Shown here one piece after another: positions 49,938-57,047 of a stretch of 64,000 bases of DNA (positions are counted from its first letter, which is position 1; every line of letters begins with the position of its first letter). Under the pieces are notes generated by a model. That model was not told the DNA's origin and did no database searches. It worked only from the letters and a program-made list of their open reading frames with translations. A program made the position numbers and the translations under genes. Source of the DNA: an uncultured Acidobacteriota bacterium (GTDB lineage Bacteria; Acidobacteriota; UBA6911; RPQK01; JAJDTT01); NCBI GenBank assembly GCA_951812665.1, contig CATOST010000036.1, positions 310,001 through 374,000 on the forward strand. Reading direction: 5' to 3'.

Positions 49938-51200
49938 CTATTCCTCGGATTCCATCTCCTCTCCTGAAGGCATCTCGCCCTCCAGAGGAACCACCGGCAG
50001 TGTGGTGAAGATGCCGTTCATGGCATCCATTTCTATGGCGACTCCGGTGAACTTCTGCGCGATGCCCGGCGCCGTGCAGCGGACCGACCCTACGAATTCC
50101 GGCATGACGTGTTCGCCGAACATCTCGTCGATGAATTTGGCATCCTGCCCGTTGGCTGGCAGTATGATTGGATAGCTTTCCAGCACCAACCCGTCCTTCA
50201 TCAATCGACAGGTCAACGTCACCTCGGACTCGCTTAGGTTGCGGAGCGCCGCCGCGGTGCGGATTCCTCCCATCTGACGAGCCGGGAAGATGGCGTTGCG
50301 GACGGCTTCGCTGGCCCCGACGCCCGCCACACCGACGCCGGGAACGTCAAAGCGCAGGACCCCGCCGATGGGGCTGTGGGGACCGTCGGAGATCACTTTC
50401 ACCGAACCGGTCACGGTCTCTCCCATACCGTTGGTCGAAATCGTGACTTCTCCCAAGGGCGCCAATTCGGACTGAAGCGTGACCGCCCCGTGATCCGTGG
50501 CTTCCAGATTTCCCCCGAAATCCACCACCGATGCCGGGTCGATGAGTTCGCCCATCTTGTCGTAGAAGTAGACTGCCGGACGGATCGGCGTGGAGGCGAG
50601 ATTCACCAACACGACATCGGAACTGATGGCGGATCCGTTGCCGAAATGAGCGAAGTCCAACGCAACCTGGTGTCCGAGATAGATGCCGGAGCCCATGACC
50701 ATGTTCGTGTCCGGAAAGAGGTCCGGAAGGGGCGAAGTGAAAGGCTCGACGTAACCCAATTTGGGGGAAGTATGGTCTTCGTCTCCTTCAATCGACGGAT
50801 CGTCAAAATGATACTCGACATAGCCTCCCCCCGATTTGGCCGCGGCAATGAGTTCCTGGACGTACAGGGCTCCGGTGAACTGGTCTTCCAGACCGCTGAG
50901 ATCCTGGTCCACCAAAGCCGCATTGCCGCCGTGCCAGCGGATGACCCCCTCGTCATTCGAAATGTAGACGTAGACGGAGCCGAACCTCCATTGCTCGTTC
51001 AAGAGATCGTCGATCTGGGCAGGATCAGTGATGCCTGCCACGTACGCCTTTGCAGATCTGACGAATGCCTTCAGAGTTTCCCGGTCCAGGACTTCTCTGG
51101 CCGTGATCCCGGTGTCCTGGGCGAGGGCGGGCTGCATAGCGGAAAAGACTACCGCCAGCCCCAAGACCCCCATGAGAAGCAGCGTTCTCAAAGATTTCAT
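49938..51200 (-). CDS. Secreted Cache-domain protein with one HFxNGxG C-terminal domain
   Basis: A 420-residue exported protein. The signal peptide is residues 1-28 (LRTLLLMGVLGLAVVFSA, cut at ALAQ-D). Residues about 35-155 look like a single Cache-type sensor domain: VYVYISNDEGVIRWHG, FTGALYVQELIAAAKSGGGYVEYHF, KLGYVEPF. Residues about 177-405 form a beta-rich domain (ALDFAHFGNGSAISSDVVLVN, SVKVISDGPHSPIGGVLRF, AALRNLSESEVTLTCRLM) of unknown function. There is no transmembrane helix or signalling output domain after the signal peptide. Cache domains usually bind small ligands; here it may be a free periplasmic or secreted binding protein. It is paralogous to the next two genes. Confidence 0.8.
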   Translation of the reverse strand: MKSLRTLLLMGVLGLAVVFSAMQPALAQDTGITAREVLDRETLKAFVRSAKAYVAGITDPAQIDDLLNEQWRFGSVYVYISNDEGVIRWHGGNAALVDQDLSGLEDQFTGALYVQELIAAAKSGGGYVEYHFDDPSIEGDEDHTSPKLGYVEPFTSPLPDLFPDTNMVMGSGIYLGHQVALDFAHFGNGSAISSDVVLVNLASTPIRPAVYFYDKMGELIDPASVVDFGGNLEATDHGAVTLQSELAPLGEVTISTNGMGETVTGSVKVISDGPHSPIGGVLRFDVPGVGVAGVGASEAVRNAIFPARQMGGIRTAAALRNLSESEVTLTCRLMKDGLVLESYPIILPANGQDAKFIDEMFGEHVMPEFVGSVRCTAPGIAQKFTGVAIEMDAMNGIFTTLPVVPLEGEMPSGEEMESEE

Positions 51201-51265
51201 AGTGATTGCTCCTTATTTTCTGACGAACGAGCGCTCTCGCTGATCCAATCCTGCGATGTCACTCC

Positions 51266-53755
51266 CTATTGCGCCACCGGCACCACGGGCAGCGTGGTGA
51301 AGACGCGGTTGTTTGCATCCAACTCCAGGGCGACGGCAGTGAATTCCTGATCCCCTTCGGGCGACGTGCAGCGGACCGACCCGGTGAAGTCGGCGGTGTC
51401 GTAGTCGAACATCTCGTTGATGAACTTGGCGGTCTGTCCGTTGGCCGGCAACTCGAGCGGCGTATCGTCGCCCAGCATTTGGCCATCCTTCATCAGCCGG
51501 CAGGTCAACGTCTGCTCGGAATCGCTGAGGTTGCGGAACGCGGCTCCGGTGTTGATCCCGCTTGCCACGCGGCGCGCCGGAAAGATGGCATCCCGGACCG
51601 GCTGGCTGGCTCCGACGCCGGCCACGCCGACGCTAGTCAGGTCGAAGCGCAGGACTCCCCCGATGGAGCTGCCGGAACTGTCGGAAACCACCTTCACCGA
51701 CCCGGTCATCAAGTCTCCCATGCCGTGGGTCGGGATGGTGACCTCGCCCAGTGGCGGTAGTGGGTTCGGGACGGTCAGAGCTCCGCTGTCCGTGACCTCC
51801 AAACCCTGCCCCATGACGTCCAATACCGATTCAACGTCGATCAGTTCACCCATCGTGTTGTAGAAATAGATGTCCGGTTGGGCCGCCGTGGCGGCTGCGT
51901 TCACCACCACGATGTCCGAGGTGATGCCTCCCCCGTTGGCGAAGTGGGCGAAGTAGAGAGTGACCTGGTTTCCGTTGCCGGATCCGGAGCCATCCGCAAC
52001 CACCGGCACCACCGGAAGTGTGGTGAAGATGCCGTTGTTCGTATCCAACTCCAGGGCGACGGCAGTGAATTCCTGCTCCCCTTCGGGCGACATGCAGCGG
52101 ACCGACCCGGTGAAGTCGGAAGTGTCGTAATCGAACATCTCGTTGATGAACTTGGCGGTCTGTCCATTGGCCGGCAATTCGACCGGCTTATCCTCGCCCA
52201 GCGTTTGGCCGTCCTTCATCAACTGGCAGGTCAACGTCTGGTCGGACTCGCTCAGGTTGCGGAACGCCGCTCCGGTGTTGATCCCGCCTGCCGTGCGACG
52301 CGCCGGAAAGATGGCGTCCCGGACCGGCTGGCTGGACCCGACGCCGGCCACGCCAACACCGGTCAGATCAAAACGAAGGACTCCGCCGATGGAGCTGTCG
52401 ATACTGTCGGAAACCACCTTCACCGAACCGGTCATCAGGTCTCCCATGCCGTGGGTCGGGATGGTGATCTCGCCCAGCGACGGTATTGCGTTCGTGACGG
52501 TCAAAGCTCTATAGCTCGTGACCTCCAGACCCTGCCCCATGACGTCCACGACTGATCCCGCGTCGATGAGTTCACCCATCTTGTCGTAGAAATAGATGTC
52601 CGGCCGGACCGGGTTGCCGGACGCGTTCACCACCACGACGTCCGAGGTGATGCCTCCCCCGTTGGCGAAGTGTGCGAAGTCAAGAGCCAACTGGTTGCCC
52701 TTGTAGAAGCCCGAGCCGGCGACGACCGTCGCACCCCCAATGCTCGGATAATCGTTCGGCACAGTGAAGGTCTGGGCGTAGCCGACCTTGGCGGACCCGA
52801 GTTCCTCATCGCCTTCCACTCCCGGATCATCCCAGTAGTAATCCACGTAGCCTCCCCCCGATATCGCCTTTTCGAGGAGTGCCTTGATGAACGGCAATCC
52901 GTTGCGGTCTACCAGCTCGACCTGGATCAGGTCTTCCTGATCCGGACGAGCTCCGTGAAAGAGCACATTGCCGTCGAGCGTCATCAAGAAAATGTAGGTG
53001 GAGCCGCTTTTCCAATGACCCCCTTCCAGCCTGAAGATGGTCTCCAATCTCGGCAGATCGAAGCGCAATGTCGGCAGGGCCCGAATAGCCCAATCGCCTG
53101 CCCCTTGAACGAAGGCTTTCAAGGTCTCCCGGTCCCGGACGTCCATGGCCGAAACCTCCGAAAGTTCAGGGAGGTCTTCAGATTCACCCTCATCGTCCAT
53201 GGTAGTGACGTTATTGTGATAGCCGCCGACCAGAATGAATACCCGGCCGGGCAACGCCTCATGACCGCCCTTGATGGCGTAGCAATCCCTGGGATTCAAG
53301 TCGTCGTTCGACGGATCATCCGAAGTGTACTCGACGAATACTTCGTCTTGATCATCCATTATTAGTGTGTCGACGATCTTTTGGACGACCATTTTCCCAT
53401 TGACGTCTACCTCCCCCGTTATGTCCGTGTTGTCCTTGCTCGGATCTTCGCCGTGATAAAACACAGTTCCATTGTCGGTCAGGACAACGAGGTACATGGA
53501 CTTGTAGTTCCAATCCCCGCCCTCTTCCCGCAGGAGATCCCCAAGCGTGAGCAGCTGAGCGAAGGGAAGGCTGGCGAAATGATCTCTTGCGGATTCGACG
53601 AACTTCTTCAGCTCCTCCTTGGAATAACCCGCGTCCACCACATCTTTGGCCGTGGTCAGCTCTTCGTCCTGGGCAAGAATCGGGGACATTACGCCGAAAA
53701 TTCCGGACAAGCTGAGTACCAACCCCCATGCCATCATCGATCTTGAGAACTTCAT
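51266..53755 (-). CDS. Secreted protein with two Cache domains and two tandem HFxNGxG domains
   Basis: An 829-residue exported protein, signal peptide residues 1-29. Two successive Cache-like domains occupy about 35-180 (MYLVVLTDNGTVFYHG) and 203-350 (STYIFLMTLDGNVLFHG), each preceded by a helix like DRETLKAFVQGA. Two beta-rich domains follow at 354-586 and 596-828, starting NQLALDFAHFANGGG and NQVTLYFAHFANGGG, and are very alike. It is the expanded paralogue of the 420-residue neighbour: both input and C-terminal domains have doubled. No membrane anchor or output domain is seen. A role in ligand capture or surface attachment is inference. Confidence 0.8.
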   Translation of the reverse strand: MKFSRSMMAWGLVLSLSGIFGVMSPILAQDEELTTAKDVVDAGYSKEELKKFVESARDHFASLPFAQLLTLGDLLREEGGDWNYKSMYLVVLTDNGTVFYHGEDPSKDNTDITGEVDVNGKMVVQKIVDTLIMDDQDEVFVEYTSDDPSNDDLNPRDCYAIKGGHEALPGRVFILVGGYHNNVTTMDDEGESEDLPELSEVSAMDVRDRETLKAFVQGAGDWAIRALPTLRFDLPRLETIFRLEGGHWKSGSTYIFLMTLDGNVLFHGARPDQEDLIQVELVDRNGLPFIKALLEKAISGGGYVDYYWDDPGVEGDEELGSAKVGYAQTFTVPNDYPSIGGATVVAGSGFYKGNQLALDFAHFANGGGITSDVVVVNASGNPVRPDIYFYDKMGELIDAGSVVDVMGQGLEVTSYRALTVTNAIPSLGEITIPTHGMGDLMTGSVKVVSDSIDSSIGGVLRFDLTGVGVAGVGSSQPVRDAIFPARRTAGGINTGAAFRNLSESDQTLTCQLMKDGQTLGEDKPVELPANGQTAKFINEMFDYDTSDFTGSVRCMSPEGEQEFTAVALELDTNNGIFTTLPVVPVVADGSGSGNGNQVTLYFAHFANGGGITSDIVVVNAAATAAQPDIYFYNTMGELIDVESVLDVMGQGLEVTDSGALTVPNPLPPLGEVTIPTHGMGDLMTGSVKVVSDSSGSSIGGVLRFDLTSVGVAGVGASQPVRDAIFPARRVASGINTGAAFRNLSDSEQTLTCRLMKDGQMLGDDTPLELPANGQTAKFINEMFDYDTADFTGSVRCTSPEGDQEFTAVALELDANNRVFTTLPVVPVAQ
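51272..51970 (-). repeat. Tandem domain repeat, copy B
   Basis: Encodes residues 596-828 of the two-Cache protein. It is a direct repeat of 51998-52696 with a period of 726 bp and long identical stretches (for example around GCATCC/GTCCCGGACCGGCTGGCTGG). Confidence 0.75.
51998..52696 (-). repeat. Tandem domain repeat, copy A
   Basis: Encodes residues 354-586. High nucleotide similarity with copy B shows recent duplication or gene conversion and makes this stretch prone to assembly collapse or recombination. Confidence 0.75.
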
Positions 53756-53817
53756 GGAAACTGTTCCTTTCCGATTAAGGTGTGATTCCTTTGGGGGCTA
53801 AGCATCCAACAAACAAG

Positions 53818-53844
53818 AGCCCGTGGCAAGCATCGCCGCGGGCT
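53818..53844 (-). terminator. GC hairpin with T-rich tail on the minus strand
   Basis: AGCCCG (53818-53823) pairs with CGGGCT (53839-53844). Read on the minus strand the stem is followed by CTTGTTTGTT, so it may terminate transcription of the gene fragment ending at 53967, before the two-Cache gene. Confidence 0.45.
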
Positions 53845-53910
53845 TTCGACCGGTCGGCCAGCCAGGTCAGGGGCCGAGAGAAAGAGAGCCGACGTCTCCA
53901 ACCCCGGACA

Positions 53911-53944
53911 ATCCGGGCAGGCCGACGAAACGGCCTGCCCGGAT
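53911..53944. terminator. Perfect 14-bp stem hairpin
   Basis: ATCCGGGCAGGCCG (53911-53924) and CGGCCTGCCCGGAT (53931-53944) are exact inverted repeats around ACGAAA. It lies 23 bp past the stop of the truncated Cache gene. No T-run follows on either strand, so it may be RNA-stabilising or a bidirectional barrier. Confidence 0.5.
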
Positions 53945-53966
53945 CCGTTCTACGGTCTCGATTCTT

Positions 53967-54557
53967 CTATTCGTCCGAATCCATCTCCTCGCGAGACATC
54001 ATATCTGCGTCCAAAGGCACCACCGGCAGCGTGGTGAAGATGCCGTTGTTGGCATCCAGCTCCACGGCCACGCCGGTGAATTCCTGTTCTCCCGCCGGGG
54101 CCGTGCAACGCATCGACCCGGTGAAGTCCGACGTGTCATGCTCGAACAGCTCGCTGATGAACATGGCCGTCTGACCATTGGCCAGCAGCGTGACCGTCTG
54201 CATCTCCACCATCTCGCCACCCATCATCAAGCGGCAGGTCAACGTCAGCTCCGACTCGCTCAGGTTGCGGAGCGCCGCTCCCGTGTCGATGCTTCCCATC
54301 TGACGGCGCACCGGGATGATGGCGTCCCGCACCGCCTGGCTGGCGCCGACTCCGGCCACGCCGAGGCCGGGTGCGTCAAAGCGAAGCACTCCGCCGATGG
54401 GGCTGTCGAGGCCTTCGGTAACCACCTTCACCGAACCGGTCATGAGGTCTCCCATACCGTTGGTTGAAATGGTGGCTTCTCCCAGGGACGGCAGTTCCGA
54501 CTGCAGGGTCAGAGCGCCGAACTCCGTGGTTTCCAGATTCCCCGTGACGTCCACCAT
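53967..54557 (-). pseudogene. 3' fragment of a third Cache/HFxNGxG protein gene
   Basis: A 196-codon frame reading MVDVTGNLETTEFGALTLQ to MSREEMDSDE. It aligns with the last 190 residues of the 420-residue Cache protein (VVDFGGNLEATDHGAVTLQ to EEMESEE), closer to that paralogue than to the 829-residue one, as shown by the shared acidic tail. The signal peptide, Cache domain and first third of the C-terminal domain are missing. At its 5' end it joins directly to a decarboxylase fragment at about 54555-54570. The ATG at 54557 is fortuitous and without a signal peptide the product could not be exported. Confidence 0.8.
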
Positions 54558-54565
54558 CGATCCCG

Positions 54566-55502
54566 ATGGAGTCGGCCCGTTCCATGCCGCGCATCAGATC
54601 CTTGCCCCTCTCGGTCACCATTCCGAAACCGCCGTAGGCGGCGTCGACGTGATGCCAGAGGCGTTCCGCTTCGCAGTAATCCGACCTCGCCTCGAGCGGG
54701 TCGATGGCGCCCGTACTGCCCGCCCCGGCATTGGAGCAGACCGCGACGGGATTGAGACCGGCCGCCCGGTCGTCGGCAACGGCGCGGACCAACGCGTCCA
54801 TGTCCAGTCGGAAGCGGCTGTCGGCGGCCACCTTGCGGACGTGCTCCGGCCGGATGCCGATGATCCTGGCCGCCCGGATCTGGGCGCTGTGGCTCTGGTC
54901 GCTCATGTAGACGGGGGGTGTCCCGCGGCTTCGCGCGCCGCCACGAAGGCGTCCAGGCTGGCCGCCGTGCCGCCGCTGGTCAGGAGACCGCCCGCGGTCT
55001 CGGGATAGCCGACCCAGCGACGGAACCAGTCGATGACCACGAGCTCGAGCTGGCTGGGGCCGCTGGAGGTCAGCCAAGTGCACTGGTTGACGTGGAAACC
55101 GGCGGCCATGAAGTCGGCCACCACGCTGGGCCAAGTCGGCGAGGAGGGGATGAAACCGAAGAAACGGGGGTGGTCGTTGCGAACCGCCAGCGGGAGGATG
55201 TCGCGCACGGCCCTTTCGATCACCTGTAGCGCCGGCTGACCCGACTCGGGTGGATCCTCCAGCAACTGGTCCACCAGATCCTGCCGGAACTCGCCGTCCC
55301 AGGCATGTTCGCCCGGCAGCCTTTCGATGCGCTCCACCACCAGCTCCGCCGCCCGGCGGGCCAGATCGAGCATGGCTTCGCGGGGCATCCGGAGGCCGTC
55401 CGATTCCTCGCAGAAGGTATCCGGAGTCGACAGCTCGTCGGACTGTTCAGAGGCCGCCAGCGTATCTAAAATGGTTTCGGGCCCATCCATGAGCGTATGC
55501 AA
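54566..55502 (-). pseudogene. 5' fragment of a PLP-dependent decarboxylase, frameshifted and truncated
   Basis: A duplicate of the intact decarboxylase gene just upstream. Codons from 55502 read LRMPREAMLDLARRAAELVVERIE, then FFGFIPSSPTWPSVVADFMAAG, to AAREAAGHPPST and a stop at 54903. Here the intact gene reads AGHPSRVTVYMGDQ; about 10 bases are missing at 54905-54921. The next frame goes on VYMSDQSHSAQIRAARIIGI through WHHVDAAYGGFGMVTERG to ERADSIGID. Homology ends exactly before the position of PLP lysine 304 and the sequence changes to a Cache-protein tail. It cannot make an active enzyme. Confidence 0.85.
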
Positions 55503-55586: not shown

Positions 55587-57047
55587 CTAATCGGACACCG
55601 CTTCCGACCCAAATCGTTCAGCGGCTTCCAGCGTCTCCCGGACATCGTCCCAGGTCGTGGTGTAGTTGACGATGCACATTCTGAGCGAAAATGTCCCATG
55701 CAGGAGCGTGGAGGATATGAACGCCCGGTCTTCCCAGAAGATGCGCGCCAGCACCGTGCGGTTGATCTCTTGCAGCGAACCCGCGTCCGGATTTGCGTCC
55801 GCCGGGTTGACCCGGAAGCAGACGATCCCCAGCGAAGCCGGGTTCATGACCTCCAGAACCGGACTCGCTTCGATGTATTCCTCGGCCCGAGCGGCCAACT
55901 CCATTCCCTGTGAAACGGCCTGGCGAAAGGCGTCCATGCCGAAGGTCCGGACCGAGACCCAGATCTTCAAGGCCCGGACCGACCGGCTCAATTGCAGGCC
56001 GCGGTCCGAAAAGTTGGGGTGATTCGCGCCCCAGATCGTGTCCTGCAGCATGTCGTGGGGGATCCGGAACGCGGTCTCGAGCGTCGTGGCATCCTTCACC
56101 AACAGACAGCCCGCCTCGTAGGGTTGGAAGAACCATTTGTGCGCGTCCAGTCCGATGGAGTCGGCTCGCTCCATGCCGCGCAAGAGCTCTCTACCCCTTT
56201 CCGTGATCACTGCGAAACCGCCGTAGGCCGCATCGACGTGGAGCCAAAGGCCTTCCACTTTGCAATAGTCCGCCATCTCGACCAGCGGATCGATGGCTCC
56301 GGTGCTGCCGGCCCCTGCGTTGGCGCACACCGCGATGGGATTGAATCCGGCGGCTCGGTCGGCGTCCACGGCGCGCCGGAGGGACTCCATCTCCAGCCGG
56401 AAGCGGCGGTCGCTCGCCACCCGGCGGATGCACTCGGGGCGGATGCCGATGATCCTGGCCGCCCGGACCTGCGCGCTGTGACTCTGGTCGCCCATGTAGA
56501 CCGTGACGCGGCTGGGGTGTCCTGCCGCTTCCCGTGCCGCCACGAAGGCGTCCAGGCTGGCCGCAGAACCCCCGCTGGTCAGGAGCCCTCCCGCACTCTC
56601 GGGATAACCGACCCAGCGGCGGAACCATTCCAGGACCACCAGCTCGAGCTGGCTGGGACCGCTCGAGGTCAGCCAGGTGCATTGGTTGACGTGATACCCG
56701 GCGGCCATGAAGTCGGCCACCACGCCGGGCCAGGTGGGCGAAGACGGGATGAAGCCGAAGAAACGAGGGTGATCGATACGCGCCGCCACCGGCAGGATGT
56801 CTCGGGCGGCCCGTTCAATGACCTGCAGTGCGGGCAGACCGGACTCGGGGGGATCTTCCAGGAGCTGATCGACCAACTCCTGCCGGAACTCGCCGTCCCA
56901 GGCGCCTTCTTCCGCCAGGGACTCGATTCGTTCCACGATGAGCTCCGCCGCCCGGCGGGCCAGGTCGAGCATGGCACCGGGGGCCATCCGGAGTCCGTTC
57001 TGTTCAGTATCGAAATCTCCCGCAATGGATTCGGTATCGCTTGGCAT
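55587..57047 (-). CDS. PLP-dependent group II decarboxylase (aromatic-L-amino-acid decarboxylase-like)
   Basis: A 486-residue fold-type I decarboxylase. FFGFIPSSPTWPGVVADFMAAG, GGLLTSGGSAASLDAFVAAR, HSAQVRAARIIGI, the LHVDAAYGGFA Asp that contacts the PLP ring, and SIGLDAHKWFFQPYEAG with PLP Lys304 are all present. Relatives make tryptamine, tyramine or other amines, or cleave aromatic substrates by aldehyde synthesis; substrate here is unknown. It is the intact copy of a tandem pair and lies next to the Cache-protein cluster, all on one strand. Confidence 0.92.
   Translation of the reverse strand: MPSDTESIAGDFDTEQNGLRMAPGAMLDLARRAAELIVERIESLAEEGAWDGEFRQELVDQLLEDPPESGLPALQVIERAARDILPVAARIDHPRFFGFIPSSPTWPGVVADFMAAGYHVNQCTWLTSSGPSQLELVVLEWFRRWVGYPESAGGLLTSGGSAASLDAFVAAREAAGHPSRVTVYMGDQSHSAQVRAARIIGIRPECIRRVASDRRFRLEMESLRRAVDADRAAGFNPIAVCANAGAGSTGAIDPLVEMADYCKVEGLWLHVDAAYGGFAVITERGRELLRGMERADSIGLDAHKWFFQPYEAGCLLVKDATTLETAFRIPHDMLQDTIWGANHPNFSDRGLQLSRSVRALKIWVSVRTFGMDAFRQAVSQGMELAARAEEYIEASPVLEVMNPASLGIVCFRVNPADANPDAGSLQEINRTVLARIFWEDRAFISSTLLHGTFSLRMCIVNYTTTWDDVRETLEAAERFGSEAVSD

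Follow-up and report, generated by a model that had tools for sequence, protein, structure and literature searches.

Predicted secreted Cache proteins with a C-terminal beta-rich tail in an uncultured genus of Acidobacteriota

Cache domains are among the commonest extracellular sensor modules of bacteria and are nearly always interpreted as sensors. According to a preprint, more than 90% of them are fused to signalling modules and a stand-alone Cache is atypical, the exception presented there being a heme-binding stand-alone sCache (PMC12889525). PscD binds its carboxylate through Tyr90, His103, Tyr143 and Lys156, three of which were called critical and highly conserved in the seed of the sCache family (PMC5062169). 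The locus described here lies in a window of 64,000 nucleotides (the whole stretch of DNA that was analysed) from an uncultured Acidobacteriota bacterium. It encodes Cache proteins that carry a signal peptide and end in a beta-rich HFxNGxG domain, called the tail in the following. No secreted Cache of comparable architecture was found in the literature. Comparisons within the genus comprised four genomes, G000 to G003, of which G001 to G003 are the congeners of the window.

Architecture, fold and pocket of genes A and B

The Cache-tail genes and the genes next to them are arranged as follows:

49938..51200, minus strand: gene A, 420 aa, signal peptide plus one Cache plus one tail (ORF, Pfam)
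51117..51200, minus strand: signal peptide of gene A, residues 1-28, ending in QPALAQ (hydrophobic segment 1-19; cleavage site placed by eye)
50673..51107, minus strand: Cache of gene A, residues 32-176, with the quartet Y77, H90, Y130, K147 (Pfam, profile, fold)
49983..50663, minus strand: tail of gene A, residues 180-406, two beta-sandwich-like halves (predicted model)
51266..53755, minus strand: gene B, 829 aa, signal peptide plus two Caches plus two tails (ORF, Pfam)
53210..53656, minus strand: Cache 1 of gene B, residues 34-182, quartet Y-H-Y-R
52697..53155, minus strand: Cache 2 of gene B, residues 201-353, quartet Y-H-Y-K
52001..52687, minus strand: tail 1 of gene B, residues 357-585
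51275..51961, minus strand: tail 2 of gene B, residues 599-827, with the stop two residues further on
53967..54557, minus strand: remnant of gene C, most of one tail, with two Caches and the start lost (sister-species homologues)
54553..55502, minus strand: second decarboxylase copy, a pseudogene that abuts the gene C remnant (comparison with the intact copy)
55587..57047, minus strand: intact group II PLP decarboxylase, PF00282 (Pfam), a neighbour outside the Cache system

An earlier note on this DNA had placed the family at 49938-54557, with one gene of one Cache and one tail and another of two of each, and both the open reading frames and Pfam agree with it for genes A and B. The ATG of gene A is preceded by a ribosome-binding-like AAGGAG, and the hydrophobic segment 1-19 is the sole such segment of its product. 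The Pfam models sCache_2 and dCache_2 both scored above their curated cut-offs, in gene A at 33.7 and 41.9 bits and in gene B, with two stretches for each model, at 64.3 and 56.3 bits. Neither an output domain (Pfam) nor a transmembrane-type hydrophobic segment after the first Cache was found in A and B, and the sole post-Cache segment among their homologues in the genus is a borderline one (1.61) located inside a tail. Chemoreceptors and sensor kinases are defined by a transmembrane anchor after the Cache together with a cytoplasmic output domain, and A and B fall outside this definition. The sequences support the view that Cache-tail proteins, which lack both a membrane anchor and a signalling output, form a paralogous, probably secreted family throughout the genus. 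Secreted Cache paralogues with nothing but a signal peptide had already been proposed for this locus, which is confirmed and extends to the genus as a whole.

A structure prediction for 49938-51200 had been suggested as a check of the Cache assignment, and it gave an sCache fold. The AlphaFold2 model of gene A has a mean pLDDT of 74.9, with values of mostly about 81-92 in the Cache region. Foldseek matched this model to the solved sCache structures 4K08, 2QHK/4EXO, TlpB and PscD with a probability of 1.00 and E values of 4e-6 to 4e-5; 5G4Y is among the entries matched at this probability. In addition, a profile built from eleven Cache copies found 4EXO, 2QHK, 4K08, 5G4Y and TlpB at E values of 7e-12 to 5e-7. 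The Caches of genes A and B are of true sCache_2 fold.

Y77, H90, Y130 and K147 of gene A align with the four pocket residues of PscD, the spacings being 13-40-17 compared to 13-40-13 in PscD. This quartet is complete in gene A and in Cache 2 of gene B; Cache 1 of gene B has Arg for Lys. Of the 31 Cache copies in the tail family, 22 have the full quartet and four others carry Arg in place of Lys. Among the sampled Caches that directly precede a tail the quartet is full in all but one (gene B of G002, Arg for Lys), and in tandem proteins it is the first Cache that has the more degenerate pocket. The quartet supports a pocket that is probably of the type seen in carboxylate-binding sCache_2 domains (C2/C3 carboxylates). 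As the quartet is kept, a small carboxylate is favoured as ligand, and the amines which had been named as ligands before are disfavoured. Free amino acids are less likely ligands, though they too bear a carboxylate. As the quartet is widespread across the whole sCache_2 family, what it predicts is a class of ligand and not one compound. The conserved Tyr of TlpB makes no contact with the ligand, which counts against the carboxylate reading.

Neighbourhood, gene C remnant and decarboxylase

The neighbourhood of the two genes, whose conservation had been set as a second check, was found to be stable, with the order SbcC-SbcD-A-B being kept in three of three congeners. Genes A and B are present in all three, and gene A shows 81-82% identity over its full length in the two that were aligned. 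The transporter gene nearest to A and B is an Nramp-like one past SbcC, on the other strand.

The idea of three neighbouring genes that each combine a Cache with the HFxNGxG domain holds for A and B and fails for the third open reading frame. A Cache is absent from this frame (53967-54557), which starts mid-domain, the ATG at 54557 lying inside the tail. At the same position the sister genomes G003 and G002 carry a gene with two Caches and one tail (L066:2-1948, intact, and L067:1-1347, truncated by the contig end). In the window the 5' part of gene C is replaced by the second copy of the decarboxylase. This copy has a frameshift near 54912-54915, its match stops at about codon 302 of 486 and it is cut immediately upstream of the presumed PLP lysine. 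Judged from the sequence, the simplest reading would be a deletion that fused the decarboxylase duplicate to gene C; the 54553/54557 junction may also be an assembly chimera. A third architecture was rejected, as the frame is a degraded deletion remnant whose homologue is intact in a sister species. The pseudogene copy shows that the region is prone to duplication and deletion.

For the intact decarboxylase the top NCBIfam match is a diaminobutyrate decarboxylase, far under the cut-off. It adjoins the A-B locus in both genomes in which this could be tested (the window and G001, in the latter beside B); in G002 and G003 the contigs end at, or just past, gene C. No decarboxylase match was present in the flanking sequence examined at the other Cache-tail loci, where the neighbours are mixed (ferritin-like, FAA hydrolase, aminotransferase, glycosyltransferase, BNR protein). 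Hence the decarboxylase stably accompanies a single locus without being a partner of the whole family. The tie between the Cache system and an amino-acid decarboxylase that the earlier note had drawn was rejected on these grounds, all the more as the extra copy at the one locus is decaying.

Motifs for amines and amino acids are described for dCache_1 domains. No dCache_1 match was found in G000, and a separate dCache_1-like protein occurs below the cut-off in G001 to G003. It is very improbable that A and B form a system that binds amines or amino acids in concert with the adjacent group II decarboxylase. The adjacency in the window and in G001 would fit such a system, but the restriction to this locus, the duplicated and decaying copy, the carboxylate type of the pocket and the missing dCache_1 match in G000 all stand against it.

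The tail as a C-terminal module of secreted proteins

The tail comprises about 228 aa, which AlphaFold2 arranges with moderate confidence in two beta-sandwich-like halves. An hhalign comparison of the two halves gave a weak alignment (26 columns, P 0.007) with the predicted strands in parallel order. No Pfam or NCBIfam family scored over its cut-off, and no known name for the tail was found in Pfam, NCBIfam or the PDB. DUF5719 and Invasin_D3 were considered as its identity and rejected, the scores being weak and unconvincing. A Foldseek search with the tail model (pLDDT 71) yielded no match at E <= 0.001. Pairwise identity among the tails of the window genes is 63-82%, within and between genes, with tail 2 of gene B being 82% identical to tail 1.

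The tail was found in 26 of the 60 relatives searched, chiefly from the same class. Among 48 distinct proteins with a tail there are 45, with unrelated N-terminal domains, in which it stops at most 22 residues short of the end (at most two residues in 29 of them), and the other three have sequence beyond it (L006/L079, L072 and L063/L071). In one protein of G000 (L079:8211-10790, C28) two N-terminal tails are followed by a long C-terminal Gly-Asp repeat. In the genome of the window the companions of the tail include LRR, FN3 and SWM/cadherin-like repeats. Further companions are CHRD, RTX repeats, BACON, an alpha/beta hydrolase and, in L083, a zinc-protease-like HExxHxxG motif that was read from the sequence. 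G000 also encodes huge secreted proteins (L078 and L099, G000:C36:392000-411000 and upstream) with a frame of up to about 4930 aa, in which SWM/FN3/Ig-like repeats are followed by two tails at the end. On C33 (L080:6666-12347) two neighbouring LRR proteins have two terminal tails each.

What the earlier note had missed is that secreted proteins more generally carry the HFxNGxG domain as a C-terminal module, the Cache being one partner among several. Such a distribution is characteristic of localisation or retention modules, a role that we infer for the tail. As its fold has no confident structural relative, position is what the argument for retention draws on, and the tails that are not terminal weigh against it. 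The tail therewith represents an uncatalogued domain common to secreted proteins of this acidobacterial class and a candidate localisation module.

The shared tail also allows for a role in adhesion or host interaction, with the Cache being one recognition domain displayed, like LRR, FN3 and cadherin/SWM, on tail-bearing surface proteins, perhaps in a sponge or another marine animal host. LRR, FN3 and SWM/cadherin-type proteins of the same genome do end in the same tail, the domains enriched in sponge-associated MAGs include LRR, FN3 and cadherin (PMC8163846), and Cache domains are enriched in some sponge-associated Thaumarchaeota, for which a possible role in host recognition was proposed (PMC7848895). 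However, the conserved pocket residues fit ligand binding rather than structural display, and hydrolases and the metalloprotease-like protein end in the tail as well. We consider a role in adhesion unlikely.

Cache proteins of the genus, proposed function and known systems

The chemoreceptor signalling domain MCPsignal (PF00015) was matched in none of the four genomes of the genus and in seven of 14 control genomes. The sCache_2 matches (nine in G000 and 30 in G001 to G003) are all located in exported proteins and are not followed by a transmembrane segment, save for the one borderline case mentioned above. They belong to two secreted families, the Cache-tail proteins (family 1) and proteins with tandem Caches and no tail (family 2). 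Family 1 includes a Cache-Cache-tail-Cu/Zn SOD protein (L071:3070-5208, G001:C188), whose orthologue in G000 (L077:12600-14375) stops just past the tail. In family 2, the Caches of which are without the pocket His (Y-x-Y-K), one member is a Cache-Cache-SBP_bac_5 protein present in all four genomes. This fusion with a signal peptide (L095:1611-4220 on C3 of G000, and L165, L166 and L167) has an architecture for which no description was found in the literature. Three tandem exported Cache-Cache paralogues without a tail, in which the pocket His is replaced, are encoded on C24 of G000 (L094:6572-10052). Outside the genus, members of the same class combine Cache with HAMP or PAS (G022 and G034), and single Caches without recognised output occur in G005 and G022 (L138 and L139). 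As the class relatives G022 and G034 pair Cache with HAMP or PAS, the exclusively secreted use of the domain is a feature of the genus.

Two further explanations have to be weighed against this distribution. A secreted Cache could be a soluble co-receptor which binds its ligand and docks on a membrane receptor encoded elsewhere, in the manner of SBP-dependent receptors. Cache domains are classically sensors, and transmembrane receptors that are stimulated by SBPs are known (PMC9602780). Yet, no kinase or receptor gene was recognised beside A and B or among the sampled neighbours of their paralogues, and with no MCP domain match in the genus we regard a co-receptor as distinctly improbable. Alternatively, the proteins could be functionless leftovers of lost chemoreceptors, which would fit with the missing MCP match and with the decay of gene C in the window. 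This is hardly credible, as A and B and their pocket residues are kept in three congeners, each genome has about 8-14 Cache matches after expansion of the families, and fusions to Cu/Zn SOD and SBP have newly arisen.

A function for A and B that we judge to have about an even chance of being correct is that of non-signalling proteins, retained in the envelope or at the surface, that bind a small carboxylate for capture and uptake or for handover. The products of both genes would be exported and soluble and would not act as chemoreceptors. Their Cache domains are predicted to bind an acetate-, glycolate-, propionate- or lactate-like carboxylate, and the C-terminal double beta-sandwich tail would hold the protein at the cell envelope or surface. 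The bound substrate would most likely be captured for uptake, or be passed to another envelope protein. Ligand binding, retention and the role in capture or uptake are all parts which we infer. The SBP fusion is only indirect support for A and B, because it belongs to the second family and lacks the pocket His, and the absence of an obvious partner transporter beside A and B counts against uptake. A broader reading, which we put forward as a tentative possibility, is that the sCache_2 domains of this genus have abandoned signalling and now bind substrates outside the cell or in the periplasm, in effect as a structurally new class of solute-binding protein with two parallel forms, one retained by the class-specific tail and the other fused in tandem to SBP_bac_5. 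If true, the Cache fold can serve capture or uptake, and caution would be needed before orphan Cache proteins are named chemoreceptors.

Among described systems, the SBPs of ABC transporters (SBP_bac_5, PF00496) resemble A and B in the proposed exported ligand binding, and the sister tandem Cache is fused to this very domain. Unlike SBPs, A and B have no SBP domain or fold match (Pfam) and no adjoining partner transporter. Where an SBP fold or an adjoining transporter defines a solute-binding protein, the sister fusion is included and A and B are not. The type IX secretion CTD (e.g., TIGR04183) likewise occurs as one beta-rich module at the C-terminus of many secreted proteins that are otherwise unrelated. 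The tail differs from it in having about 228 aa in two halves, in being often tandem and at times internal, and in matching no NCBIfam CTD model; to our knowledge it is larger than the known CTDs. A search for SprA gave no match, and neither did its positive control. Stand-alone sCache_heme proteins (DUF3365/Tll0287 type) are exported and without output, as are A and B, but they carry a CxxCH heme motif, which is missing from the Caches of A and B, and their description does not include the tail module (PMC12889525). Closest are the sCache_2 domains (PF17200; PscD/McpP, Adeh_3718 4K08, Vibrio 4EXO), which share fold, sequence family and the Tyr-His-Tyr-Lys quartet with A and B. The solved sCache_2 domains are the sensing portions of chemoreceptors that sit in the membrane and have a cytoplasmic output, whereas A and B are predicted to be soluble and exported, with a beta-sandwich tail attached.
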